Position numbers and translations under genes: made by a program. Source: Sinomonas sp. ASV486 (GTDB lineage Bacteria > Actinomycetota > Actinomycetes > Actinomycetales > Micrococcaceae). From it: 64,000 bases of DNA. Positions 11,726 through 50,127 of the stretch are shown piece by piece. Position 1 is the stretch's first letter; every line of letters begins with the position of its first letter. The DNA is taken from contig NZ_JAVFJK010000012.1 in assembly GCF_030908215.1 (NCBI RefSeq), positions 71,524 through 135,523 of the forward strand, read 5' to 3'. A model generated the notes under the pieces. It had not been told where the DNA came from. It was given only the letters and a program-made list of their open reading frames with translations, and searched no databases.

Positions 11726-13669
11726 ATGGCAGCGACCAGATCCGCACCTGCGTCTGAGGCCCGCTCGAGCGCGATCATGGCCGTCGGCACCCTGGTCTCG
11801 CGGGCGCTGGGCTTCATCCGCTCGTGGCTGCTCATCCTCGCGCTCGGCCTCGGCTCGACCGTCGCCGATACGTTCGTCAACGCGAACAACCTGCCGAACC
11901 TCATCTTCCTGCTCGTTGCCGGCGGCGTGTTCAACTCCGTGCTCGTGCCGCAGATCATCAAGGCGAGCAAGGCGCGGGACGGCGGCGCGGACTACATCAG
12001 CCGCCTCCTGACACTCGGCGTCCTCGTCATGCTGGTCCTCACGGCCGCCGTGACGCTCGCCGCGCCCTGGGTCATGCAGCTCACGACGTCCGGCTACAGT
12101 CCCCCTCAGCTCGCCATCGCGACGGTCTTCGCCTTCTGGTGCCTCCCGCAGATCTTCTTCTACGGCCTCTACGCGCTCTTGACCCAGGTGCTCAATGCAC
12201 ATGGGGCCTTCGGGCCGGCGATGTGGGCCCCGATCGTGAACAACATCGTCGCGATCGCGGGGTTGGGCATGTTCGTGTGGATCTTCGGAGCGAACCGGAC
12301 CAATCCCCACAGCCTGGACAACTGGACCGGCGGCCACACGTTCATGATCGCCGGGATGTCCACGCTCGGCGTCGTCATCCAGACAGCGCTCCTGATGCTC
12401 CCCGTGCTGCGGCTGAGGCTCGGGCTCTCCCCGCGGTTCGGGTGGCGGGGCGTGGGCCTCGGGGCCGCGGCGCGCCTCGGCGCGTGGACCCTCGCAACCA
12501 CCGCGGTGGGCCAGCTGACGTTCCTCTATGTCATGAAGGTCGCCTCCCAGCCCGGCGCCGAGCGCGAGCGGCTGCAGGAGGCCGGCAACCCGCTGTGGCA
12601 GCAGGTCCCGGGCAATACCGTCCTCGAGATCGCGTCCCAGCTCTATCTCCTGCCGCACTCAATCATTGCGCTCTCGCTCGCGACGGTCCTCTTCAACCGC
12701 ATGACGGAGGCGTCCCAGGCGGGCGACCGTGCTGGCGTCCGCGAAGCGCTCTCGCACGGACTCCGCACTATGGCGGTGGCGACGGTGTTCGCAGCGTTGG
12801 CGCTGTTCGCACTCGCCGCGCCGCTGGGCATGTTCTTCTCGGGCGGCCGCGCATCCGACGGCGTCATGCTCGCCCAGACGTTGAGCATCCTCGCGCTGAG
12901 CACGCCGTTCATGAGCGCCAACTTCATGATGGCGCGCGTCTTCTACGCGAAGGAGGACGCGCGCACCCCGTTCAAGATCCAGCTGTGGCTCGCGATCCTC
13001 AACGTGGTCGGCGCTTTCGTCATCCAGTACCTGCCCGCGCGCTACATCATCTTCGCCATCGCCGGCCTGTACACAGTGGGGAACGTCCTCTCGGTGGTCC
13101 TGAGCAGCCACTACCTTCGCCGCCAGCTCGGCCACCTCGACGGCGCGCACGTGGCGCGCTCGTACATCCGCATGGGCTACGCCGCGACGGGATCCGCAAT
13201 CGTGGGAGCGGTCGCGGTCGGGCTCCTCGGCGGCTACAACCCCAGCGGGTTCATCTGGAGCTCGAACTTCGCCGCGCTGGCCGCCATCGTGATCATTGCC
13301 GTGCCGATGCTCATCGCGTACTTCGTTCTCCTGCGGGTCTTCCACGTCACCGAGGTACGCGATCTCCTCCGTCCGATCCTCGGCCGGGTCGGTGGGCGTC
13401 TCGGCCTCGGTGACGCCGCGCCGTCGCCCGCGCGGTCGACGCACGACGCCGGTGCTGCCGCCGGCTCACCGGGCGAGCCCAGCGAGCCTCCCATCACCGC
13501 CGCGATCACCACGATCTCGAACGACACGGGCATCATCCCGCGCATTTCCGGGCAGTTCGATCCGGTGATGTACCGCGCGCGTCCCACCAGTCCGACACCC
13601 GAGCGGCTCCCTGGACGGCGCTCGTTCCAAGGGCCGCCGGGAGAGAACCCGAATTTTCCCGAGGACTGA
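11726..13669 (+). CDS. murJ: Lipid II flippase MurJ
   Basis: 647 residues with 14 or so hydrophobic helices of the MATE-like MurJ/MviN fold, starting VSRALGFIRSWLLI. The tail after residue ~545 is cytoplasmic, Ala/Ser/Pro-rich and apparently disordered (ends NPNFPED). MurJ flips lipid-linked peptidoglycan precursor across the membrane. In mycobacteria the protein continues into a pseudokinase and an extracellular domain. Here the reading frame stops, and those modules are a separate downstream gene 102 bases away. TGAGGT precedes the ATG. Confidence 0.95.
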   Translation: MAATRSAPASEARSSAIMAVGTLVSRALGFIRSWLLILALGLGSTVADTFVNANNLPNLIFLLVAGGVFNSVLVPQIIKASKARDGGADYISRLLTLGVLVMLVLTAAVTLAAPWVMQLTTSGYSPPQLAIATVFAFWCLPQIFFYGLYALLTQVLNAHGAFGPAMWAPIVNNIVAIAGLGMFVWIFGANRTNPHSLDNWTGGHTFMIAGMSTLGVVIQTALLMLPVLRLRLGLSPRFGWRGVGLGAAARLGAWTLATTAVGQLTFLYVMKVASQPGAERERLQEAGNPLWQQVPGNTVLEIASQLYLLPHSIIALSLATVLFNRMTEASQAGDRAGVREALSHGLRTMAVATVFAALALFALAAPLGMFFSGGRASDGVMLAQTLSILALSTPFMSANFMMARVFYAKEDARTPFKIQLWLAILNVVGAFVIQYLPARYIIFAIAGLYTVGNVLSVVLSSHYLRRQLGHLDGAHVARSYIRMGYAATGSAIVGAVAVGLLGGYNPSGFIWSSNFAALAAIVIIAVPMLIAYFVLLRVFHVTEVRDLLRPILGRVGGRLGLGDAAPSPARSTHDAGAAAGSPGEPSEPPITAAITTISNDTGIIPRISGQFDPVMYRARPTSPTPERLPGRRSFQGPPGENPNFPED

Positions 13670-13771
13670 GCCCGAGCGCTCCCGAAGGCCCGAGACGCCC
13701 TTCCGCTAGGATCACTAGCAGCACAAGGTGCGGCCACCGGTCGTGCCCGCGCCCGCGACCAGGAGGTTTCC

Positions 13772-15490
13772 GTGTCCCAGTCCATCGACGTCGGCACCGT
13801 GCTCGGGGGACGGTACAAAGTCACGTCTTCGATCGTGACATCCCGTGAGGGTGATCTGGTCCTTGACGGCGTGGACCAGGTCCTGAACAGGCCAGTCAGC
13901 ATTCTCGTGGCCGGCGCCTCCAACTCGGACCAGCTGGCGCAGAGCGCACGCGAGGTCGCTATGGGCGAGCGTCACGGTGCCGTCCAGGTCCTCGACCTCG
14001 GCATCAGCCACGGAGCCACGTACCTCATCACGAACCACACATCTCCCGCCGATCTGCTCGACCTGATCGTTGCGCAGGAGACTCCGTATGTGGAGCCGTT
14101 CTTCACCGACACTCTCGGCAGCGAGATCTTCGGCGAATCGCGCTCACACGAGCCGGAGACGTACGACGGGACGGTCAGTCCCGGCAGGCCAGACAACTAC
14201 ATCCGCTATAACGAGCGCGGGGAGCCCATGCCCCATGGGCCGGGGGCCGGGGGCGCCGCGCCCCGCGGCGCGGCAGGTGCCGCGGCCGCCGCGGCTGCTG
14301 CAGCGGCAGCGGCACGCCAGAATCGCGCGCCAGGCACATACCCACCCGCGCCTTCCCGTCCCACGCAGCCTGGCCAACAGGGCGGGCCCCAGACGGCTGA
14401 CTACCCTGCGGCGCCCGTCGGTCCGGCATCCTATAGCGGTGGCCCCGCCGCATCGATTCCGCCCCCACCAGCAGCGCCCCCGCAGTCCACACCGTCGGGA
14501 ACCCAGCCCCAGCGCTCAGACGAACCATCTCCTCGAGGTCGGGAGGAACTGACCTCCGGTGGAGCTTCGGCCGGATACGGAGCCGCCGGAGGAGCAGCGG
14601 CTGCTGCCGCAGGTGCCGCACGTCCCGGCACTCCGCGAGTCACCCCTTGGCAGGCTCCGCAGAATGCGGGGGGCACCGAGCCCACGCCTACGGCTGCCTC
14701 ACCGGTTCAGGGCCACGCTCCCGCCGAACCACGTCAGCACTGGCCTTCCCAGCGCCCCGCCGCCGTGATGCCCGAGGCGGCCAGACCGTCGTCGTCCGCC
14801 CCATACGAAGACTACGAGGACGATGAGAGGACCAAGCCGCGTTCCATGCCGTGGCTCGTGGGGGGCATCCTTGCTGTCGTTCTCATCGCGGCGCTGATTT
14901 TCGCCTTCACGACCCTCGGCAACCTGTTCCAGCCCCAGGCGGCGAGCACCGCGAGTTCCACACCGCACGCGTCACAGGGCCAGAGCGGAAGCTCCGCCGC
15001 GAGTTCGTCATCGTCAGGGACCGCCCCCGCCCCGACGGCCGCACCAGCCATCGATTCGGTGACTCGGATCAATCCCGACGAACTGAGTTTTGCCAACGAC
15101 TTCGACAGCAAGCTCCCTCTGACGTTTGACGGAAACCCGGCAACCTACTGGTCCGATATGGAGTTCGCCCGTGAGGACTGGGGCGGTTTCACCAAGAGCG
15201 TCGCCCTCGCCGTGAAGCTCAAGGATCAGGCCCAAGTCAAGCAGGTTACGCTGCTGCAGTCCGGTGGTTCGGGCGGTAACTTCAGCATCTACACGAATGA
15301 TCAGCCGAGCCTGACGGGTGCCACGCTCGCCGGGACGAGCTCTTTCACCGGGCCGCAGGTGGTTGTCCCCGTCACCGGAACTCCGACGGCAAAGTACGTC
15401 ATCATTCAGATCAACTCGCTCCCGCGGCTGTCAGCCCCGAAGACCCAGTACCCGTTCGGTCTGCGTCTCGCCGAGATCAAGGTGGACTAG
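13772..15490 (+). CDS. MurJ-associated pseudokinase with one TM helix and a discoidin-like extracellular domain
   Basis: 572 residues from a GTG behind AGGAGG. Residues 1-110 resemble the N-lobe of a Ser/Thr kinase (LGGRYKVTSSIVTSREGDLVL..) but show no VAIK lysine, HRD or DFG motif, so it is a degenerate kinase. A long Ala/Pro/Gly-rich linker follows. A single TM segment (WLVGGILAVVLIAALIF, about residue 370) leads to an outside domain resembling F5/8-type or galactose-binding folds (TFDGNPATYWSDMEFA, then FGLRLAEIKVD at the end). This mirrors the C-terminal half of mycobacterial MviN (Rv3910), whose phosphorylated pseudokinase recruits FhaA to control cell-wall synthesis. Inference: the same regulator expressed as a separate polypeptide. 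Confidence 0.8.
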   Translation: MSQSIDVGTVLGGRYKVTSSIVTSREGDLVLDGVDQVLNRPVSILVAGASNSDQLAQSAREVAMGERHGAVQVLDLGISHGATYLITNHTSPADLLDLIVAQETPYVEPFFTDTLGSEIFGESRSHEPETYDGTVSPGRPDNYIRYNERGEPMPHGPGAGGAAPRGAAGAAAAAAAAAAAARQNRAPGTYPPAPSRPTQPGQQGGPQTADYPAAPVGPASYSGGPAASIPPPPAAPPQSTPSGTQPQRSDEPSPRGREELTSGGASAGYGAAGGAAAAAAGAARPGTPRVTPWQAPQNAGGTEPTPTAASPVQGHAPAEPRQHWPSQRPAAVMPEAARPSSSAPYEDYEDDERTKPRSMPWLVGGILAVVLIAALIFAFTTLGNLFQPQAASTASSTPHASQGQSGSSAASSSSSGTAPAPTAAPAIDSVTRINPDELSFANDFDSKLPLTFDGNPATYWSDMEFAREDWGGFTKSVALAVKLKDQAQVKQVTLLQSGGSGGNFSIYTNDQPSLTGATLAGTSSFTGPQVVVPVTGTPTAKYVIIQINSLPRLSAPKTQYPFGLRLAEIKVD

Positions 15491-16705: not shown

Positions 16706-17035
16706 ATGAGCAACGCCAAGAACGTCACTGACGCCGAGTTCACCGACGAGGTCCTCATGTCCGAGAAGCCTGTCATCGTGGACTTCTGGGCCGAATGGTG
16801 CGGCCCTTGCCGCAAGGTTGGCCCCATCCTCGACGACATCTCCGTCGAGTACGCCGACCGTGTCGATGTGGTCAAGGTCGATGTGGACAACAATCCAAAT
16901 ATCGCGGCTGAGTATGGCATCACCTCCATTCCTGCTGTGTACCTGTTCGAGAAGGGTAGGGTCACCGGAACGGTGATCGGCGCCCGCCCGAAGCAGTACT
17001 TCGAGAAGGAGTGGAGCGAGGTTCTCGTCAAGTAG
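16706..17035 (+). CDS. trxA: Thioredoxin
   Basis: 109 residues with the active site WAEWCGPCRK (Cys at about 33 and 36) and the cis-Pro of ITSIPAVYLF. General thiol-disulfide reductant, cotranscribed with its reductase. A hairpin terminator follows at 17058. It is the last intact gene before the 6.3 kb ORF-free region. Confidence 0.97.
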   Translation: MSNAKNVTDAEFTDEVLMSEKPVIVDFWAEWCGPCRKVGPILDDISVEYADRVDVVKVDVDNNPNIAAEYGITSIPAVYLFEKGRVTGTVIGARPKQYFEKEWSEVLVK

Positions 17036-17057
17036 ACACTTGGGCGAGTCCCCCCGC

Positions 17058-17087
17058 GGGGAGGTGCGGCGCATGCCGTGCCTCCCC
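17058..17087 (+). terminator. Terminator of trxBA
   Basis: GGGGAGGTGCGGC (17058-17070) pairs with GCCGTGCCTCCCC (17075-17087) over a GCAT loop. All 13 positions pair if two wobble pairs are allowed, and TTCTTCTT follows. It lies 23 bases past the trxA stop. Confidence 0.8.
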
Positions 17088-17157
17088 TTCTTCTTGGCCA
17101 CGGCTCTTCGTGACCGCGGCGCTGCTTTCGGTCGCGCCCGGCCCCGAGCGCCAGCCC

Positions 17158-17171
17158 GTTTCACGTGAAAC
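17158..17171. other. parS site 1
   Basis: GTTTCACGTGAAAC, the conserved core of the bacterial parS palindrome bound by ParB. Flanks C..C. It lies 71 bases past the trxBA terminator. Confidence 0.93.
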
Positions 17172-17680
17172 CGGCCACCATGGGTGAGTTCCCCTGGGAT
17201 CGCTATACCCTCGCCAGCCAGCCTTTTGGCTTCGCTGACCCCCGGCACACATGTCCTATCAGTTGAACCGCACGGCACCTTCAAGTCTCGATCCACAACG
17301 CGGATCGGGTGGTTAGACGGATGGTTAGCGCACAGGTTGCAGGAATGCGGCGGACAGATAATTCGGGCACGTGGTGCGCCAATTCCTCCAGGAGCATCCA
17401 GCTCCGCGCCGCTAAGGTGGCACGGCGGATGACTTGAAGGGGCTTCAGTGCTCATGGGTTTCCTATACGCCAGCGGACTGGTCGCGCAGCACCAAGTTTC
17501 GGGCGCCTCCAGCTGAACTCAAGCCCGCTAGCTTGGTGCAGTGACACCGAAGCGGAGCATGGAGATGACTCGACAAGTCGACTCCGCCGTCTCGATCCAG
17601 CCCCTGAATCGCCCCCTCGACCTAGCTGTTCCCTGATTTGGAGGGATGATCTCCACCCCTACTATCGACCAGGGCCTCTT

Positions 17681-17694
17681 GTTTCACGTGAAAC
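17681..17694. other. parS site 2
   Basis: GTTTCACGTGAAAC with T..A flanks, so the full 16-bp palindrome is perfect. 523 bases from site 1. Confidence 0.93.
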
Positions 17695-18664
17695 AGCGCT
17701 GTCGGTCCCTCATCAGGCTCGGAAGCTGCGCATTCGGCTTTCTGAACACCGGCCGTACACGAGATCCAGCTGACCAACCCGACATCTCATACGTGGGCCG
17801 CTTTCACGGCCGATGACCCGTTGAATCAACTCAAGAGGGTGTATCGGCCGGCGGAGGCAGTAGTCTTCCGCAGTGACTCAACGCTCAGGAAAGAGTGAAG
17901 CCAACGACTTTCACTACCACTCCCTCATCTCGCCTTTGGGCCATTGCCAATCTTCTGTCTCGCATCCGAGCGCGACCAGCGGGACGTTCACATACCCGTG
18001 ACTGTCGATCCTGACTAGATTCTCGAACCAGTCCGAGCCCAGACGATAGCGGTCTGCTGAGCACCAAGCTGTTCATCATGACTATCAGGGCGCAATCAAC
18101 GTCCTAGCATTGCCCGATCCGGCTCCTCGAGCAGGTATTGGCTCGACAACTCTTTGGTCGATAGTGCCACTGCGCGACACATCCCTGTCGCGCAACCGAC
18201 CATCGTCACACGCTCTCCAGGACTGCGCACGCCCAAGTTTCGGCTCCTCCGGGCAAGCGGGCGCCCCGCAATGCCGCGACCATGCCCGACCGCGACGCTC
18301 CCATCGTTCCCACCAGCACTCAAGTCGGGATCGCGCCGAGGTAGTCAGGCCCATCAGCGTTCGTGCGCCCAGTAATAGACACACCACTGCTGACGCGCGG
18401 AAGAGCCTTGTGATGATACTCGGACCGTCAAGGTGCATGTAATGGTGTCGCGATCGCCTCGGCGTCATGGCTTCCCGTAGTCATCGGGAAGCCTTCGATA
18501 ATCAAGCCACGGGTCCACGAACCACCCATGACGCGTGTGCGTTGATCGTCGCGGTGAGACCTACGAGCGTCGGTAACGAGTCGGACGCCAGGCGCCGACA
18601 ATCTATCCCAAGTGTCCCGGCGCGCGTGTCCTGCGGATCACCGGTGTCCCCTGAACGGTCGGAG

Positions 18665-19445
18665 TCAGAGGATGGTTACAGTGACCATGAGTTCCACACG
18701 GTAATAGGCGACGCTTTTGGCGTAGCGGATGGCGAGGTCGGAGCTGCTCAAGGCGGTTAAGGCAGTCGTCGACAACATTTGGTACGGCAGTCCTCGTGGG
18801 GTCGAATGCTAACGGTCGCCCGCCCGACGTCCCTTGCCCTTTGTCACGCGGCAGGGCCCTCCGGTCGGCTCGCTCGCGCCGATGGAGCGAACTCTGCGCC
18901 TGCGCGGCGCTACCGAAATCGAGGGGTGAGAGTAGATTGTGTCGGCCAGAACGGCTTCAGACCTGCCGTGCGGTCTGCCGGGGCCCAGCCAGGGCCAACG
19001 CGCCCGGCCGCTACCCGTCTCGAGCAGGGGCTCGGCTGAGGGCGGTCCGCGTCCTGAGCCGAGCGTCGGATCACTCATCGGGAGCCCCCTCCCGTCGACC
19101 GCGGGGTGGATCCTATAGCTCAGTTCGTGCGGAGAGTTTCGGTGCCGTCACTATCCGTTGCGATTGGCTCGACCGCGGGCGTGCTGGTGAACCCGAACGA
19201 CGGTGGAGTCGATGCTGAAGACCCATTCGGCTTCCCCAACGGCGTCGCCCTTTGACGGCGGGATCAGCCATTCTCCGATGGTCCGTCCCGAGAACACTTC
19301 CGCAGTCGCTCGCGCGCGGTCTCCCACGGGCCGTCGGAAAGCTCCCGTCATGGGACCCCGGTGCACAGCATGAATTGGTATCGCTCTTGTCAGGTGCCGG
19401 TGATCGCACCAAGGTCCGAGACGGGAGGCGCCGGTTCGCTTCCGC
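18665..19445 (-). pseudogene. Decayed IS5-family transposase
   Basis: Reading leftward and allowing frameshifts, the pieces of an IS5-type DDE transposase appear in the correct order. They are: RYQFMLCTGVP then a stop (TGA at 19348-19350 where Trp is usual) then GPWETARERLRKCSRDG (about 19332-19282); VFSIDSTVVRVHQHA (19235-19181) with the first catalytic Asp; YRIHPAVDGRGLPMS (about 19125-19070); GPGRPHGRSEAVLADTIYSHP; GGRPLAFDPT..NVVDDCLNRLEQL (from 18825); and LAIRYAKSVAYYRVEL (18737-18689), ending at a stop near 18665. At least three frame changes and a nonsense codon make it non-functional. Flanking inverted repeats were not identified. It sits between parS sites 2 and 3. Confidence 0.82.
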
Positions 19446-19708
19446 CCCGCGCCCTGTCACTGAACCCGCCTCTGCCAACCACCCGCCGGACCCAACACTG
19501 CCCCCAGCACCAGCCCCCATTCACAGGAAACCTTTGCCAGCCGGCGTCGAGAGCGGCGTTGATGTTCTGGCGGAAGACGTTGGCAGGGTCCCACCCGCAC
19601 TTGTGCGCCGACAGCTGAGCCACTGCGCATCTCTCCAGCCCGCAGGCCACAGCCACCGTTCTGGCCTCACCTCACCGATCTCACTGGCGCCCCCTCTTCA
19701 ACCAAATG

Positions 19709-19722
19709 GTTTCACGTGAAAC
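19709..19722. other. parS site 3
   Basis: GTTTCACGTGAAAC, flanks G..A. 2.0 kb from site 2, with the transposase relic in between. Confidence 0.93.
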
Positions 19723-20188
19723 ATGAGCGCCCCGCTACCCGCTACCCAGAGGGCCACTCATGGTTTGACATGCCTTCTATCGACTTCACTCCTTCCACAG
19801 CGAGAATCCATGGCGCACCGGCTCGATAGCCGCTTGATGGGTTATGGTGCTCGACCATCCGACGCATCATTCAACCCGCGTACCAATCGAAGGCGGAGTC
19901 AATCGTCGGGCACACCATCAGCGCAGTCGGGGTCGGGCAGACCCCGTGACGACAGACCATGCCTCGAGCATCCGTTCCTTGGGACAGCCGAGAGGCCTCC
20001 CACACAGCCGAACCCATACTCGCGCATATTTGATCTTTCACGTTGGTTAGGTATTCGTCCATCGCTCGCACTCCAGGGAGTGTCGTCACTCGTAGCCGGA
20101 TATAGGTGGGCAGGAGGGCCTCTCATCTCTAGCCGGAAAGGTGATGCGGTGGTGCCCACTCCCCGCGCAGCCCAGTCGCGCTCCAGGG

Positions 20189-20278
20189 CTATCCACACTC
20201 TTATCCACAGGTTCCATCCAGGGGCTTGCACATCGGAGTGACGGGATGACCGAAGACGAACGGGGACCCTGTGGATAG
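20189..20278. other. DnaA-box group in the centromere region, convergent boxes
   Basis: CTATCCACA (20189-20197) and a perfect TTATCCACA (20201-20209) face TGTGGATAG (20270-20278) on the other strand, 60 bases apart. The head-to-head arrangement is the same as in the cassettes at 46.3, 47.5 and 50.1 kb. The group is about 9.4 kb from dnaA. Confidence 0.6.
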
Positions 20279-20606
20279 CGATTCGGATCACGCTGCCAAT
20301 AGGTTCTGCTTTGGTGATGGTCCGCAAGGATGATGACAGGGAGCGGGGAGCACCAATGTGTCTGGTTCGCGTGGTGAGGCTACTTGCCAGGGATGCTGGT
20401 TGTCAGCGCACTTCGGTAGATATCGACGCTAGAACACCATATTGCAGACGACCCGCGACTCGAAGACTTCGGGTAGTGCGCCATGGCAGCAGAGCACGAT
20501 GTCAACGCTCCCGGAGGCTACCCTCCGGTCATGGCTAACCTATGGATCGGTCTGCGATGTAGAGCGTGCGACCCCCGCACATTATCGACAGGACTTATCA
20601 ACACGG

Positions 20607-20660
20607 TTATCCACAGGGACCCCTCCGCGGCTGCAACGCCAGGGTTCGAAGTTGTCCACA
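20607..20660. other. DnaA boxes, second group
   Basis: TTATCCACA (20607-20615) and TTGTCCACA (20652-20660) in the same orientation. Both match the DnaA box consensus of high-GC actinobacteria exactly. Confidence 0.6.
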
Positions 20661-21013
20661 GGTAGCCGAAGGATATCGGCCCCAACTTTTGAGCTCCGAC
20701 CGCTGGTCCATGTCGGTTCATTTGGAACCAAGTCTCAGATTCGTCTTCCGGAGTCTCGAACAACTCGGCGACGCCAAGTTCAGGTTCCACCGTGCGTTCA
20801 GTCTCCTGGCTCGTCAGTCCTCCCGTCGGCCGTCGCCATCTGAGACTGAAGAGCGGTCATCGGGCGGCGGGTCCGAATCCAAGGTAGACGCGGAACTGCG
20901 TCATGCGAGAAGGCGCGCTCTCAAGCGTTGACTGCGGCAAACCCATGCCGGGGCGAAGACGAGACAACGCTCGAGGAGGTGCGGAGGTGGCGTCAGCCAG
21001 ATGGTCCATGGAT

Positions 21014-21027
21014 GTTTCACGTGAAAC
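21014..21027. other. parS site 4
   Basis: GTTTCACGTGAAAC with T..A flanks (perfect 16-mer). Confidence 0.93.
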
Positions 21028-22885
21028 AACCGCCCTAACCACTGCAGACACCTTGGCCCCCGTGCGTATATCCCTCTGCCCCAACGATCGCAGCCCGCTG
21101 GTCATCGGTGCCAGATGGATACGAGCAAAGAGAAGAAGCAATCCCAGCATCCGCTGCAACACGGCATCACGGCTCCGATCGGGGGCAAATCCGGTGATCC
21201 CATTCCAGCCGACCCATGGGAGCGCGCGCTCACGGCCATCAATGCCCGCCCTTCACTTCCATCCGGTTCCTGGAATGCCACTGAGCCACATGCAGTGTGG
21301 GAGATTCGGATCACCAACCAAGAGACTCACACGACCTCAACCATGTCCGGTCTGAGACGACCCCCGCTCAATGTGCCTCTAGGCCCGCCAGTCCCCTCTG
21401 CCTGCACCAAGGTCAGGTGTCAGTCGCGCTCCCTCGTCTTGCGCGTACTCCCCGTGCGAGCCAACCCGAACATCTTGGCGGCTCCCGGGACGCGGACGTA
21501 ACTGAGCCAAGACGCGCAGCTAGCTGAGCCACCACGTTCTCCTCCAGATGCATCGCGGGAGTTCCGAGGTGCCGCCCGACAAGGAAAGGCTTCAGTTGAG
21601 ATGGCTGGCAACAGGCCCGCTCAAAGTCGTCATCGGGTCGAACTCATAGCGATCCCCCCGTTGCCCCGCGCGAGGGAGTGCCGCAGACCCCCACACCGGA
21701 GAGCCAGATCGTCGAGTTCGATGGGCGCTCCACATTCCGTCGGGTCGGTGCTCGCCGCGGCGTCATCGCCATTGAATCCGGTCCGCTACTCGCACCTGCC
21801 CACAGCTTGGTCGAATCTAGACCGATCACTGAGTAAGCCGCGAAAGACCGGCGAGGCTCTGCGTGCACCTCACACCCCGCGTCTCCCGCCGGCATGCGCC
21901 AGCCAGCCCAAGCAACCCGGCGAGGACTGATGGTCAAGCCGGCAAAGACTCTGGATTCGCGCTCGTTAGTCCCCTAAGTCCTCTGTCCAGCTATACCGAA
22001 CCCCAACTACAGCGACGATCATCTGCAAGCTGCCGCCATGCGGCACCGAGGGAACGTCCGCAGCCATGAGCCGGTGTCCGGTTAGCCGGCAGACGGCTAT
22101 CACACACCTCCGTCGCGTAGTCAGTTGGAAATCGCGGCTGCTCACTACCGCGAAGGAGACCCATTCCGTGGAGTCGGCATTGAAGAACCTCGAAATCTGC
22201 CTCCAAGACGAGCTGGTTGTTCGTGTGAATCGCTGGGCGCGGCTAGGTCGCGGTGTGCTCAGACAGATAGTGCACTGAGACGGGCTGCAAGCTAGCGCAG
22301 CGGCGCACTCATCTTCTGCTGTTCAAAGAACAACTGCCTTCAGCGAAGGATGGCCGGCCAGGTCTCGGACGACGACAGGAACATGCGCCGCTCCGCATTC
22401 CGGAAGATCATTGGAGCATCGCCATCGACCGTCTCCTCTACGCATCGAGGCCCCAAGGATCACCCAGATTTGATGAGCCACACTCACCGTAGCCATTCAC
22501 ATCGCTCGGGCTGAAACTCCTCGTGCCACCCACACCGGAACCGTCCGTCTCGTCCTGACCCGGATGTTCTGCCACAAACGGTCCACAGCACCACATGATT
22601 CAAGACATACCTTGGCGACACCGGTTCGTCGAAGGCCCGCGCCGCGACCCAGCAGCTCGTGTCTACCGATCTCGATTGGTATATGTGGACTAGAAAGCCC
22701 CGTCGTAACCGAGTCACACATCAGGCTCAGCGGACGTAGCTTCCCCGACGACTGTGTACCTAGCGGACAAGCCGATCGCCGCCCACGCATAAGCGATCGA
22801 AGGTTAGTTGAGAGACGAAATCGGGCTCTGAACTCGGCGCTCCACTTCGCTCACACTCCCTCGGTCCAGTCCGGTTCGTCCTGGT

Positions 22886-22899
22886 GTTTCACGTGAAAC
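22886..22899. other. parS site 5
   Basis: GTTTCACGTGAAAC with T..A flanks (perfect 16-mer). Confidence 0.93.
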
Positions 22900-22931
22900 A
22901 GATGATTCCGCCGAATCCTCTCTCTTACTCC

Positions 22932-22969
22932 CCAGACCGCGATCCAGACCGCGATTACTCCAGATTGCG
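22932..22969. repeat. Short 12-bp direct repeat in the centromere region
   Basis: CCAGACCGCGAT occurs twice in tandem, and a third degenerate copy (CCAGATTGCGAT) follows after a few bases. It is non-coding and lies just beyond parS site 5. Confidence 0.5.
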
Positions 22970-23298
22970 ATCCGTCGTCCGCGACAGCACCAACGTCGGC
23001 CCGCGTCATCGGCCGAACAGACTACCGAGCATGACGCCTCCCAAGTTGAGCACGGACTGACGATCCCACCGAACTGAGTCGGGAAGCCAGCTTCCCCAAA
23101 GGCCTCGCCCGGAGAACGGCAAATGACCCTCGCCCCCTCGTCGGCCGGACAATGGGGCATACGCACTCAACACTCACGGATCCACGGCGTAGTAACAGAG
23201 AGCGAACGAGAGAAATCACCCGCGGACTAAGAAACCGACGAAGCCACCGACGAGGGCGCTTCTGAACTGTCCACCAATGTCCAGCAAGACAGCAAAGC

Positions 23299-23328
23299 GG
23301 GGGTCCGTTTCACGTGAAACGGACCCCC
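23299..23328. terminator. 30-bp perfect palindrome downstream of parB, containing parS
   Basis: A 15-bp perfect inverted repeat centred on 23313/23314: GGGGGTCC + GTTTCACGTGAAAC + GGACCCCC. It lies 46 bases past the parB stop on the parB coding side, where a terminator would sit. Only parS site 6 has this GC-rich extension, so the element probably serves both as terminator and as parS. Confidence 0.65.
23307..23320. other. parS site 6 (inside the parB terminator palindrome)
   Basis: GTTTCACGTGAAAC with C..G flanks. Nearest of the six to parB, 421 bases from site 5. Confidence 0.93.
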
Positions 23329-23374
23329 ACTTGCGAGCATTGAGAACTACGAGACTTCGTCGTGCGAAGGAATG

Positions 23375-24550
23375 CTATTCCTCTTCGGGGCTGATAAGCG
23401 TCATGATCCGGTTGAGATCCTCAACCGAAGCGAACTCGATGCTGACCTTGCCCTTCCTCGCGCCAAGAGTGATCTTCACATTGGTGTCGAGTCGATCCGA
23501 AAGAGAGGAGGCCAGGAAGTCGAGTCGTTCGTGCCGCGCGTTGTTGCGCGTCGAAGCTCGTCGAGCCTCCTGCGGCTCCTGATAGAGCGCCACGGCTTCC
23601 TCGGTTGCTCGAACCGAAAGTCCCTCTGACACAATCTTCTGTGCCATGCGCTCAATCGAAACATCGTCTGGAAGCGACAACAAGGCGCGGGCGTGGCCCG
23701 CCGAGAGGACCCCCGCCGCAACCCGACGCTGAACCAACGGAGGAAGCCGAAGCAGGCGAATCGTATTGGACACTTGAGGCCGCGACCTGCCGATCCGGTC
23801 CGCAAGCTCCTCATGGGTGGTCCCAAAGTCCTCGAGAAGCTGCTGGTACGCAGCGGCTTCTTCGAGCGGATTCAGCTGACTCCGGTGAAGGTTCTCAAGA
23901 AGGGCATCACGCAGCAGAGCATCATCGCCCGTGTCGCGGATAATGGCCGGAATGGCCTCCAGCCCGGCTTCCTTCGCGGCACGCCATCGCCGCTCACCCA
24001 TGACCAGCTCGAATGATTCACTACCCGATTCGGTTGATTTCCGAACCACGATGGGCTGGAGGATCCCGATCTCGCGAACCGAGTGGACCAGCTCGGCCAT
24101 TTCCTCCTCATTGAAGACAGAACGAGGCTGCTTGCGATTCGGATGGATCTTCTCGACGGGGAGTTCGGCAAACTGAGCACCCGGAACCTCAACCAGGTCG
24201 AGATCATCGGTGTCCCGCTGCTTCGCCTTGGAGCGAGTGGACCTCACAGGCGGCCGCTTGCCTCCATCAACCGACGGCTCGTCAGCCTCAGGAGATGCCG
24301 TGACGGGAGTCTGTGCACCGTGGGACTCCTCCCCCTGCCCCGTCACAACCGGCTTCTCAGCTGGCACCCCCTCAGCCGAAGACTGGTCAGTCCTGGTCGT
24401 CTCCTCGGACTCGTCCTCGGTCCGCCGCCCCGAATCCGGGAAGAAGAGGTCCACAGGGCGCGCAGGCGCCGTCGAGCCACTGGCCGCCGGAGGTGCACTG
24501 GGAATGAGGGCTCCCAGGCCCCGGCCCAGTCCTCGGCGCTTCTCGCTCAT
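23375..24550 (-). CDS. parB: Chromosome-partitioning protein ParB (CTP-dependent clamp)
   Basis: 391 residues from ATG 24550, chosen because GGGAGG precedes it; the upstream in-frame ATG at 24568 lacks a site. It begins MSEKRRGLGRGLGALIPS, the usual ParA-stimulating N-terminus. An acidic linker of ~100 residues follows, then the ParB/Srx domain with the CTP-binding GERRWRA box (about residue 185), the NLHRSQLNPLEEAAAYQQLLED segment, a HTH (GRSRPQVSNTIRLLRLP) and a C-terminal dimerisation domain. It loads at parS and slides to form the partition complex; six parS sites lie immediately downstream. The operon partner parA is 75 bases upstream. Confidence 0.96.
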   Translation of the reverse strand: MSEKRRGLGRGLGALIPSAPPAASGSTAPARPVDLFFPDSGRRTEDESEETTRTDQSSAEGVPAEKPVVTGQGEESHGAQTPVTASPEADEPSVDGGKRPPVRSTRSKAKQRDTDDLDLVEVPGAQFAELPVEKIHPNRKQPRSVFNEEEMAELVHSVREIGILQPIVVRKSTESGSESFELVMGERRWRAAKEAGLEAIPAIIRDTGDDALLRDALLENLHRSQLNPLEEAAAYQQLLEDFGTTHEELADRIGRSRPQVSNTIRLLRLPPLVQRRVAAGVLSAGHARALLSLPDDVSIERMAQKIVSEGLSVRATEEAVALYQEPQEARRASTRNNARHERLDFLASSLSDRLDTNVKITLGARKGKVSIEFASVEDLNRIMTLISPEEE

Positions 24551-24625
24551 GCGGTTATCCTCCCTCACGCCCGGTAGCCGGGCACCTGACTGTTCGAGTC
24601 GTCTGCAACGGCATGCGCCGTCGTC

Positions 24626-25705
24626 CTAGCCCTCAGCGATCTCCGCGGCTGCCTCGAGATACGAGAGCGCCCCCGTCGAGGTCGGGTCGTAGGTCATCAC
24701 GGTCTGCTGGTAGCTCGGCGCCTCGGAGATCCGCACGGACCGCGGAACCACGGCCTCGAGCACCTGCTCGGGGAAATGCTCGCGCACCTCGGCTGCCACC
24801 TGGGCGGCAAGGTTCGTCCGACCGTCGTACATCGTCAGGAGGATCGTCGACACTCGAAGATCGGCATTGAGGTGCTTCTGGATCATCTCGATGTTCTTCA
24901 GCAGCTGGCTCAGTCCCTCGAGCGCGTAGTACTCGCATTGGATCGGGATCAGCACTTCGCTCGCAGCGCAGAAGGCGTTGACTGTCAGGAGGCCGAGGCT
25001 CGGCGGGCAGTCGATCAAGATGTAGTCGAGCCGCGGAAGACCCTCTTCAGCGCGGGTCACGGCGTAGTTCTCGATCGCCCGGCGGAGCCGCTGCTCACGA
25101 GCCACGAGCGAAACCAGCTCGATCTCAGCGCCGGCCAGATGGATGGTCGCGGGGGCGCAGACGAGATTCTCGACCTCGGGGCACTGGGCGATGACGTCAG
25201 CGAGGGGTTCGTCGTTGATGAGGACGTCGTAGATGCTCTCGACCTCGGCATGATGCTCGATCCCGAGCGCCGTCGACGCATTGCCCTGAGGATCGATGTC
25301 AATCACGAGCACCTGGAGGCCCGCAGAGGCCAGAGCAGCGGCGATGTTCACCGTTGTGGTCGTCTTTCCGACCCCGCCCTTCTGGTTGGACACGGTGAAC
25401 ACCCGAGTTGAGTCGGGCCTGCGGAACCTGCGCCCCTGAAGCCGCTCGCGGCGTCGTGCCTCATTTGCCAGCTGGGAGGCGATAGGGCTGCCCTCGTCAA
25501 GGGTCTTCAGGAGGGACTGGTCATCGCGCGGTAGGCTTCCCGGCATCCCGTCGGCTCCCTCCCGAGCCGGATGCGGAGCAGTATCCATGTCGCCGTCCGC
25601 CATGGCGCGCGCAGATCCGAGCGTCAGGAAAGGAGGGATCCGCTGGGCCGACGTATCGCCACTGCTCACTGTCAACTCACTCTCGATTCGCGTCAATTGC
25701 CTCAC
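24626..25705 (-). CDS. parA: Chromosome-partitioning ATPase ParA
   Basis: Up to 359 residues. The deviant Walker A KGGVGKTTTTVNIA (about residue 111), Walker A' DIDPQGNASTALG and Walker B ILIDCPPSLGLLT identify a chromosomal ParA/Soj. The start is uncertain: GTG 25705 (a TAGTCT -10-like box lies 3 bases upstream), GTG 25669 and ATG 25603 are all in frame, and the first ~75 residues are low-complexity. It dimerises with ATP on the nucleoid and moves the ParB-parS complex. It is the second-to-last gene of the leftward operon from rpmH. Confidence 0.95.
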   Translation of the reverse strand: MRQLTRIESELTVSSGDTSAQRIPPFLTLGSARAMADGDMDTAPHPAREGADGMPGSLPRDDQSLLKTLDEGSPIASQLANEARRRERLQGRRFRRPDSTRVFTVSNQKGGVGKTTTTVNIAAALASAGLQVLVIDIDPQGNASTALGIEHHAEVESIYDVLINDEPLADVIAQCPEVENLVCAPATIHLAGAEIELVSLVAREQRLRRAIENYAVTRAEEGLPRLDYILIDCPPSLGLLTVNAFCAASEVLIPIQCEYYALEGLSQLLKNIEMIQKHLNADLRVSTILLTMYDGRTNLAAQVAAEVREHFPEQVLEAVVPRSVRISEAPSYQQTVMTYDPTSTGALSYLEAAAEIAEG

Positions 25706-31113: not shown

Positions 31114-31500
31114 GCGCTCCTCACCTCGCCCGCGCGTGCCTTATTAACAGGACCCTGTGGACAACCCTGTGGACGGTTAAGTGCACATCCCCGCCTGATG
31201 GGGTTAAAACCCCCATCAGGCCTGTGGAGACACGTAACTACACGAATCCGGCGATCCACAGGCCACCCCCACTCTGATGGCACACCATCAACACCGGATG
31301 AACACCCGACTCCCGCGCGAATCCGCGGCCAGAGACCGTTATCCACAGTTTCCACAGCAGTTATTAACACCATAAATACCAAGAATCTGAAGATCGTCAG
31401 ATAACAGTTACCCGCCAGCCCTCCGAACCCCCTTCGAACGACCCCGTCGGAGCCCCCTCCCCCGAGCCGATCAGCTTGAACCGGCGAGTACGGTTGGCGC
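31114..31500. other. oriC: oriC (dnaA-dnaN spacer)
   Basis: 387 bases between dnaA and the dnaN promoter. DnaA boxes and near-boxes: TGTGGACAA (31156-31164), TGTGGACGG (31169-31177), TGTGGAGAC (31222-31230), CGATCCACA (31252-31260), TTATCCACA (31339-31347) and TTTCCACAG (31350-31358). AT-rich stretches that could unwind are TTATTAAC at 31141 and the run from 31370 to 31415 (TTATTAAC...ATAAATACC). A perfect stem-loop lies at 31194-31220. Gene context and box density make this the origin of replication. Confidence 0.9.
31194..31220. other. 10-bp stem-loop inside oriC
   Basis: CCTGATGGGG (31194-31203) and CCCCATCAGG (31211-31220) form a perfect stem with loop TTAAAAC. It lies between DnaA-box pairs. 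It may terminate dnaA transcription (80 bases past the stop) or be a structural element of the origin. Confidence 0.6.
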
Positions 31501-31545
31501 TAAGCTGTGGTCAACTGCGACAGCGATGAAAGGCGGAACGCTTCC

Positions 31546-46250: not shown

Positions 46251-46265
46251 ACGCCGGACCCCTCT

Positions 46266-46403
46266 CCACAGCGTTATCCACAGTGTGTACAACTTACAGT
46301 CCTGTAGTTACTCGGCCGTAGACCCCTTGTTCACGGCCCACGGGGTCGGGCCGTTCGATTGAGCTCGGCACCCGTAGGCCCCGCATCCCCAGTCTGTGGA
46401 TAA
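46266..46403. repeat. DnaA-box cassette A
   Basis: CCACAGCG then TTATCCACA (46274-46282), GTGTG, and AACTTACAG TC CTGTAGTT (46291-46308); 86 bases later the opposite-strand box TGTGGATAACTCTGG begins (46395). Cassettes B and C have the same order. It fills the spacer between convergent genes. It also contains two mutually exclusive hairpins: GACCCC/GGGGTC and CGGCCC/GGGCCG at 46321-46353. Confidence 0.75.
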
Positions 46404-47411: not shown

Positions 47412-47453
47412 GATCAATTTACGCCGCGTCGATCTGCGGGTCAAGTGATCTTC

Positions 47454-47580
47454 TCCACAGCGGTTATCCACAGTGTGAGTAACTTACAGCCGTGTAGTTC
47501 AGCTGGCGTTTACCCGCTAGCGCCCGCCGTGTTCATCTGAGGAGCGGTTTTGACCGCAACTTGTCCCCACGTGTGGATAA
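47454..47580. repeat. DnaA-box cassette B
   Basis: CCACAGCGG then TTATCCACA (47464-47472), GTGTGAG, TAACTTACAG CC GTGTAGTT (47480-47499); later TGTGGATAACTCTGG on the other strand starts at 47572. The first 40 bases match cassette A at nearly every position. It lies in the divergent spacer between the arsR-like gene and the deacetylase. Confidence 0.75.
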
Positions 47581-47699
47581 CTCTGGGCATAAAGCCTGTT
47601 GGAAAGTGGACAAGCGTGCAGAGGCCAGCCGGCTGGGTCGCCTAACATGGGAAGCGGAATACGTCCAGTCACACGGGTGCGAAGACCCAGAGGAGAGCT

Positions 47700-50001: not shown

Positions 50002-50034
50002 ACCGCCGGTGATCGAGGTGGTCGAGGCGGGTTT

Positions 50035-50127
50035 TCCACACCCTTGTCCACCCCGTGGATAACTTACAGTCGTGTTGTTCCTTGTGACTGACCGGTATCC
50101 ACGGACTTTCCCACAGGCTGTGGATAA
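50035..50127. repeat. DnaA-box cassette C
   Basis: TCCACACCC TTGTCCACC (50044-50052), then GTGGATAACTTACAG TC GTGTTGTT (50055-50078); TGTGGATAACT follows at 50119. It is more diverged than A and B but keeps the AACTTACAG.C.TGT core and the final outward box. It lies in the spacer before the double-GNAT gene. Confidence 0.65.

Follow-up and report, generated by a model that had tools for sequence, protein, structure and literature searches.

Six parS sites and two phased DnaA-box arrays in a trxA-parB interval of Sinomonas without detectable genes

ParB is described as loading at parS sites as a cytidine triphosphate (CTP) clamp, which slides and recruits SMC (PMC12511625). A consensus for parS, TGTTNCACGTGAAACA, is given in a study that also reports modulation of DnaA by Soj/ParA in Bacillus subtilis (PMC7022226). 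According to PMC6399470, DnaA binds the parS region of Caulobacter, where a low level of DnaA can start segregation without replication, and RctB binds the centromere of Vibrio cholerae chromosome II. Beyond a few models, the tie between segregation and initiation is an open question in bacteria. In this study, we analyzed a 64,000-nucleotide stretch (the window) from the chromosome of Sinomonas sp. ASV486. Between the convergent genes trxA and parB it holds a long interval, hereafter named the gap, in which no gene was detected and which contains six parS sites and two arrays of DnaA boxes.

An earlier reading of the window, hereafter called the original prediction, had reported six identical parS sites in the gap and none elsewhere. 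All six 14-mers (GTTTCACGTGAAAC) are exact at the positions given in Table 1, and a scan of the window allowing up to three mismatches revealed no additional site (shuffled sequences: mean 0.84, maximum 5). The search was extended to all 19 contigs of the assembly (4.28 Mb), which hold no exact copy besides these six; one copy with a single mismatch lies on contig 14. Sites matching the parS consensus are thus clustered near parAB and dnaA, as in ParABS centromeres. ParB, ParA and DnaA are ordinary proteins according to Pfam, and ParB has the N-terminal, helix-turn-helix (HTH) and dimerisation domains of a ParABS system. The gap measures 6,339 bp, from the trxA stop at 17035 to the parB stop codon at 23375, and both genes point into it. 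Its GC content was said to be low, which is true relative to the whole window (61.5% versus 67.6%) but not relative to the flanking trx and par genes, whose composition is similar.

The original prediction also held that the gap contains no intact gene and that conserved proteins encoded there would speak against it. None was found. Pfam (E 0.01) gave no match for the 42 open reading frames (ORFs) scanned among 60 listed in the gap with at least 50 codons, and Rfam (E 1) gave no match in the gap. No ORF of at least 60 codons resembled (E 1e-6) one in the gap of another species; pairs with a second genome of the window's own species (L091) were omitted from this comparison, which does recover genes kept in the gap by outgroups. 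The three-base periodicity of coding DNA was absent, with a median of 1.2 over 16 segments of the gap versus 12.2 over 161 segments elsewhere, about 9% of the latter being as low as the highest value in the gap. The longest open frame has 175 codons, less than the mean of 261 in shuffled sequences. Blastn analyses gave no match of the gap to plasmids and no match of the array region to phages, and a tandem-repeat search of the gap returned five low-scoring rows, nothing notable. An assembly artefact is unlikely, because the second genome of the species carries the same six sites inside a single 4.29-Mb contig. Between these two genomes all six parS sites are exact, and the gap diverges by 2.1% with 17 indels, compared with 0.7-1.1% in neighboring genes. 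Identity, with indels counted, is 94.7% over the leftmost 4 kb of the gap and 99.6% over the 2.4 kb on its right, a step that is possibly a recombination border.

To compare gap length and parS number across Sinomonas, Arthrobacter and their relatives, as the original prediction had proposed, we assembled 95 loci (80 parB loci, 14 genomes of the genus and the window). The gap was measured in the 87 that carry both trxA and parB; the remaining eight lack trxA in the retrieved stretch. All 15 genomes of the genus have four to seven exact parS sites, all within a single stretch of 3.3-7.5 kb; in six of them one site lies inside parA, and every other site is in the gap. Long gaps with several parS sites recur in 34 species of the Sinomonas/Arthrobacter group (L091 excluded), with lengths of 3.1-9.2 kb and 4-11 sites: 3.1-6.8 kb in 15 Sinomonas-group loci (the window, L001 and 13 more) and 4.3-9.2 kb in 19 loci of Arthrobacter, Pseudarthrobacter and Paenarthrobacter. 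Some other Micrococcaceae (Psychromicrobium, Kocuria polaris, Rothia mucilaginosa) have short gaps of 69-343 bp, and Glutamicibacter-group loci have long gaps with parS and no array.

The gap holds a second conserved element, which had been overlooked: two arrays of DnaA boxes in its middle (20189-20660 in the window). The 4.28-Mb assembly contains 55 exact DnaA boxes, so the three inside the gap are far above the average density. Across the 34 gaps, boxes within an array mostly follow one another in steps of 12-13 bp, the two arrays are separated by a median of 400 bp, and they lie at 0.37-0.64 of the gap length. We then searched for phased pairs, defined as boxes with at most one mismatch that are 11-13 or 24-26 bp apart, in these 34 gaps and in 52 other gaps with a minimum length of 50 bp; the first box table had skipped gaps shorter than 1 kb. 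All 34 gaps contain phased pairs, 83 in total and every one of them on the strand that reads in the direction of parB, and none occurred in five shuffled sets. Among the 52 other gaps a single one (L023) has a phased pair, on the opposite strand. The 34 gaps were chosen after the boxes had been seen. In a tree of trx and par proteins made afterwards, 35 array carriers form one side of a branch with a support of 87, a value from a quick search with no bootstrap and not starred.

Little else is shared between these gaps. Among the 10-base words listed as exceeding the shuffled level, all are parS or DnaA-box words together with their edges; among the 8-base words listed, two GC-rich words of neither kind occur in 24 of 34 gaps, the shuffled maximum being 23. 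The best 40 of 83 cross-species blastn matches, ranked by length, are mostly of 37-92 bp and fall on DnaA arrays or parS, in addition to transposase genes. Mobile-element genes or their remains were found in three of the 34 gaps (L021, L085 and L002). Transposase genes or pieces of them lie at the trxA edge in L021 and L085 (6012-7685 in the latter). In L002 an integrase-core (rve) gene at 13452-14654 lies between the two DnaA arrays, which are 1.9 kb apart with this insert.

The spacing of the six sites had been described as irregular. Over the 34 gaps this does not hold: the coefficient of variation of parS distances averages 0.53 versus 0.77 expected, and none of 1,000 random sets was as even, a result that holds for each group separately. 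In nine pairs of sister gaps, spacer identity is 0.53-0.56 compared with 0.51-0.53 for shuffled partners, the real value being higher in all nine, by 0.01-0.03, so that spacers are near saturation. The parS positions nevertheless nearly match in two of these pairs, where spacer identity is within 0.02 of that of the shuffled partner. All six correspond in L010 and L015 (171, 583, 1313, 2129, 3003 and 3862 versus 183, 634, 1403, 2263, 3198 and 4085), and five of six in L088 and L094. Such matches may reflect a constraint on distance, or else a slow turnover of indels.

On the evidence of sequence, the gap is probably a dedicated ParABS centromere with a built-in DnaA platform linked to the state of initiation. 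That this DNA is kept for segregation, as the original prediction proposed, is the best-supported reading, because no shared element is commoner than parS, the gap adjoins parAB in the vicinity of dnaA, and long gaps with several evenly spaced parS sites recur in 34 species whose spacers can hardly be aligned. It is incomplete, since the same gap holds the paired phased DnaA-box arrays. We infer from this layout that ParB and DnaA bind the gap, that ParB slides there and that initiation is coupled to segregation. ParB-CTP clamps would load at the six spaced parS sites and slide along DNA without detectable genes, the gap serving as a runway. A partition complex would form, be moved by ParA and be able to load SMC. 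The two same-strand arrays in the middle of the gap would bind DnaA as short filaments, which would link the centromere with the cell's state of initiation. The outcome could be that origin segregation is released or timed, or that free DnaA is kept under control. More tentatively, a lineage of Actinobacteria may have evolved a regional, gene-free centromere with evenly spaced parS sites and a central, directional platform for DnaA filaments, through which the state of DnaA would directly license segregation, independently of Caulobacter and Vibrio. A ParABS centromere is ordinary in its parts; the recurrent gene-free region, the even spacing and the central DnaA arrays are what is unusual here.

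Several observations weigh against this reading. In the sister group, Psychromicrobium gaps measure no more than 69-102 bp. According to PMC7083940, Corynebacterium glutamicum folds its chromosome normally with a single parS site, so many sites and a gene-free runway are perhaps not essential. The remaining sister pairs are loose (L083 and L084) or unlike in the number or position of parS sites; exact places are therefore not fixed. Blastn at E 1e-5 matched the window's gap, including its arrays, to no species but its own, and the arrays are recognized by their box pattern. Finally, a scan for sigma-70-type promoters found no site in the gap where shuffled sequences give 1.4, which makes it weak evidence on transcription.

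The chief rival to coupling accepts the centromere and regards the arrays as a titration or timing cluster, located there since the gap is gene-free. We consider it possible, although less so than a platform tied to segregation. DnaA boxes may titrate DnaA with no role in segregation, and a cluster of boxes outside oriC, as found here, is a feature of the datA or DnaA-box cluster (DBC) type. E. coli datA and the DnaA-box clusters of Bacillus and Streptomyces are comparable titration or timing clusters. In the window, too, intergenic clusters occur near the origin (46.3, 47.5 and 50.0 kb). Yet the paired layout on one strand, at 0.37-0.64 of the gap length in all 34 gaps, seems a tighter constraint than titration alone would need. 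That the arrays are instead a working origin, or half of a bipartite one, with the dnaA-dnaN region secondary, is unlikely. Some bipartite origins do have such paired DnaA-box arrays, and the stretch between the arrays is slightly richer in AT than its flanks (medians of 0.43 and 0.39). However, GC skew shows no flip where the arrays lie: it is negative to their left in 33 of 34 gaps and to their right in 31, with no paired difference, which is what a position to one side of an origin would predict. In G014, the sole complete genome examined (over 400 kb), the skew reaches a shallow minimum about 12 kb to the right of where dnaA starts, outside the gap, which is 6.2-11.5 kb to the left of that start. 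DnaA boxes with at most one mismatch precede dnaA in all 31 array-group loci that include this gene and follow it in 30, the exception (L081) ending 98 bp past dnaA. The arrays are thus probably not the main origin, and an origin in the gap was rejected on skew. Given the skew and the boxes around dnaA, they are most likely off-origin DnaA sites, with the presumed oriC between dnaA and dnaN.

Gene content bears on two further explanations. The gap could be neutral debris left by gene loss, with parS kept merely through nearness to parB. Some relatives indeed have a gene in the same place: an amidase gene with peptidoglycan-binding domains, which we take to be cwlM-like, in A. koreensis (L022, 14984-16177; similar frames in L024 and L026), and an aminotransferase gene in Cellulomonas (L050; similar frames in other relatives). 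Tblastn (E 0.01) of amidase, aminotransferase and ligase genes gave no match in 46 Sinomonas, Arthrobacter and related gaps, on which a relic of such genes was rejected. The persistence of long gaps with evenly spaced parS sites in 34 species, despite spacers that hardly align, likewise makes neutral debris quite improbable. An RNA or small proteins that escaped detection seem the least probable explanation: short, fast-evolving genes could be present, but the lack of conserved ORFs and of periodicity stands against them, as does the restriction of shared words to parS and DnaA boxes, and a hidden RNA was rejected for lack of an Rfam match. We therefore return to the centromere with a DnaA platform as the favored reading.

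Coordinates of the elements discussed are collected in Table 1, where the identity of dnaN rests on its position and a 374-codon frame. The number of terminator-like sites across the gap is about what shuffled sequences give (4 versus 3.6). Among four stretches that were folded, the hairpins after trxA and parB stand out (z -3.6 and -5.9). The one after parB is long, is followed by no T run and was not called by the terminator scan; it is possibly the parB terminator. Where the last parS site lies within 150 bp of parB, 21 of 31 loci have at least five extra paired bases around it, compared with at least four at 10 of 248 other sites, and 16 were found at the parB-proximal site of one Psychromicrobium and two Rothia loci. 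To the right of the origin, three further DnaA-box clusters (46262-46403, 47451-47613 and 50032-50127) lie between gene ends or close to them. The one located +17.8 kb from dnaA corresponds to a cluster at +17.76 kb in G014, detected with an array scan stricter than the phased-pair scan of the 34 and 52 gaps.

Table 1. Positions of the gap, its elements and neighboring genes in the window (a dot marks features given without strand)
Feature	Coordinates	Strand	Remarks
Centromere region without detectable genes (predicted)	17036..23374	.	between convergent trxA and parB
Terminator-like hairpin	17058..17087	+	after trxA, directed into the gap
parS 1	17158..17171	.	exact match
parS 2	17681..17694	.	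exact match
parS 3	19709..19722	.	exact match
DnaA-box array 1	20189..20209	+	two boxes 12 bp apart (starts 20189, 20201), second exact TTATCCACA
Single DnaA box	20270..20278	-	one mismatch
DnaA-box array 2	20582..20615	+	three boxes at 12-13 bp (starts 20582, 20595, 20607), last exact
Exact DnaA box TTGTCCACA	20652..20660	+	adjoins array 2
parS 4	21014..21027	.	exact match
parS 5	22886..22899	.	exact match
Hairpin with parS 6 as core	23295..23332	-	just after parB; possible parB terminator
parS 6	23307..23320	.	exact match; core of the hairpin after parB
parB	23375..24568	-	Pfam: ParB_N, HTH_ParB, ParB_C
parA	24626..25705	-	Pfam
dnaA	29641..31113	+	Pfam
Presumed oriC	31114..31545	.	dnaA-dnaN intergenic region with DnaA boxes

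The gap could be cut, moved or shortened while genes stay untouched. Since detectable word conservation over 34 species with hardly aligning spacers comes down to parS and DnaA boxes, two inputs are isolated in it, and the even spacing allows asking whether parS distance and gene-free length affect ParB sliding and SMC loading. A search of the open-access literature, by titles and the beginnings of abstracts and with subscription papers outside its reach, found no description of such a region in Arthrobacter or Actinobacteria. Among known systems, the DnaA-box clusters of Bacillus and Streptomyces and E. coli datA likewise lie outside oriC, and we know of none inside a parS centromere. Near oriC, C. 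glutamicum has a cluster of ten parS sites, nine intergenic, but this cluster extends over 35 kb with genes in between and is 73 kb away from oriC, and the parts of PMC7083940 consulted mention no DnaA array. At rctA/parS2 of V. cholerae chromosome II, initiator binding and parS are combined in one locus beside the origin, although the initiator there is RctB and the replicon a second chromosome (PMC6399470). The layout described here appears closest to DnaA at the Caulobacter parS region: in Caulobacter crescentus, too, the centromere region contains DnaA boxes and adjoins an origin distinct from it (Mera et al. 2014, as cited in PMC6399470 and PMC6667618). Unlike Caulobacter, the Actinobacteria studied here have 3-9 kb without detectable genes, 4-11 parS sites and two phased arrays on one strand, to which DnaA is predicted to bind.

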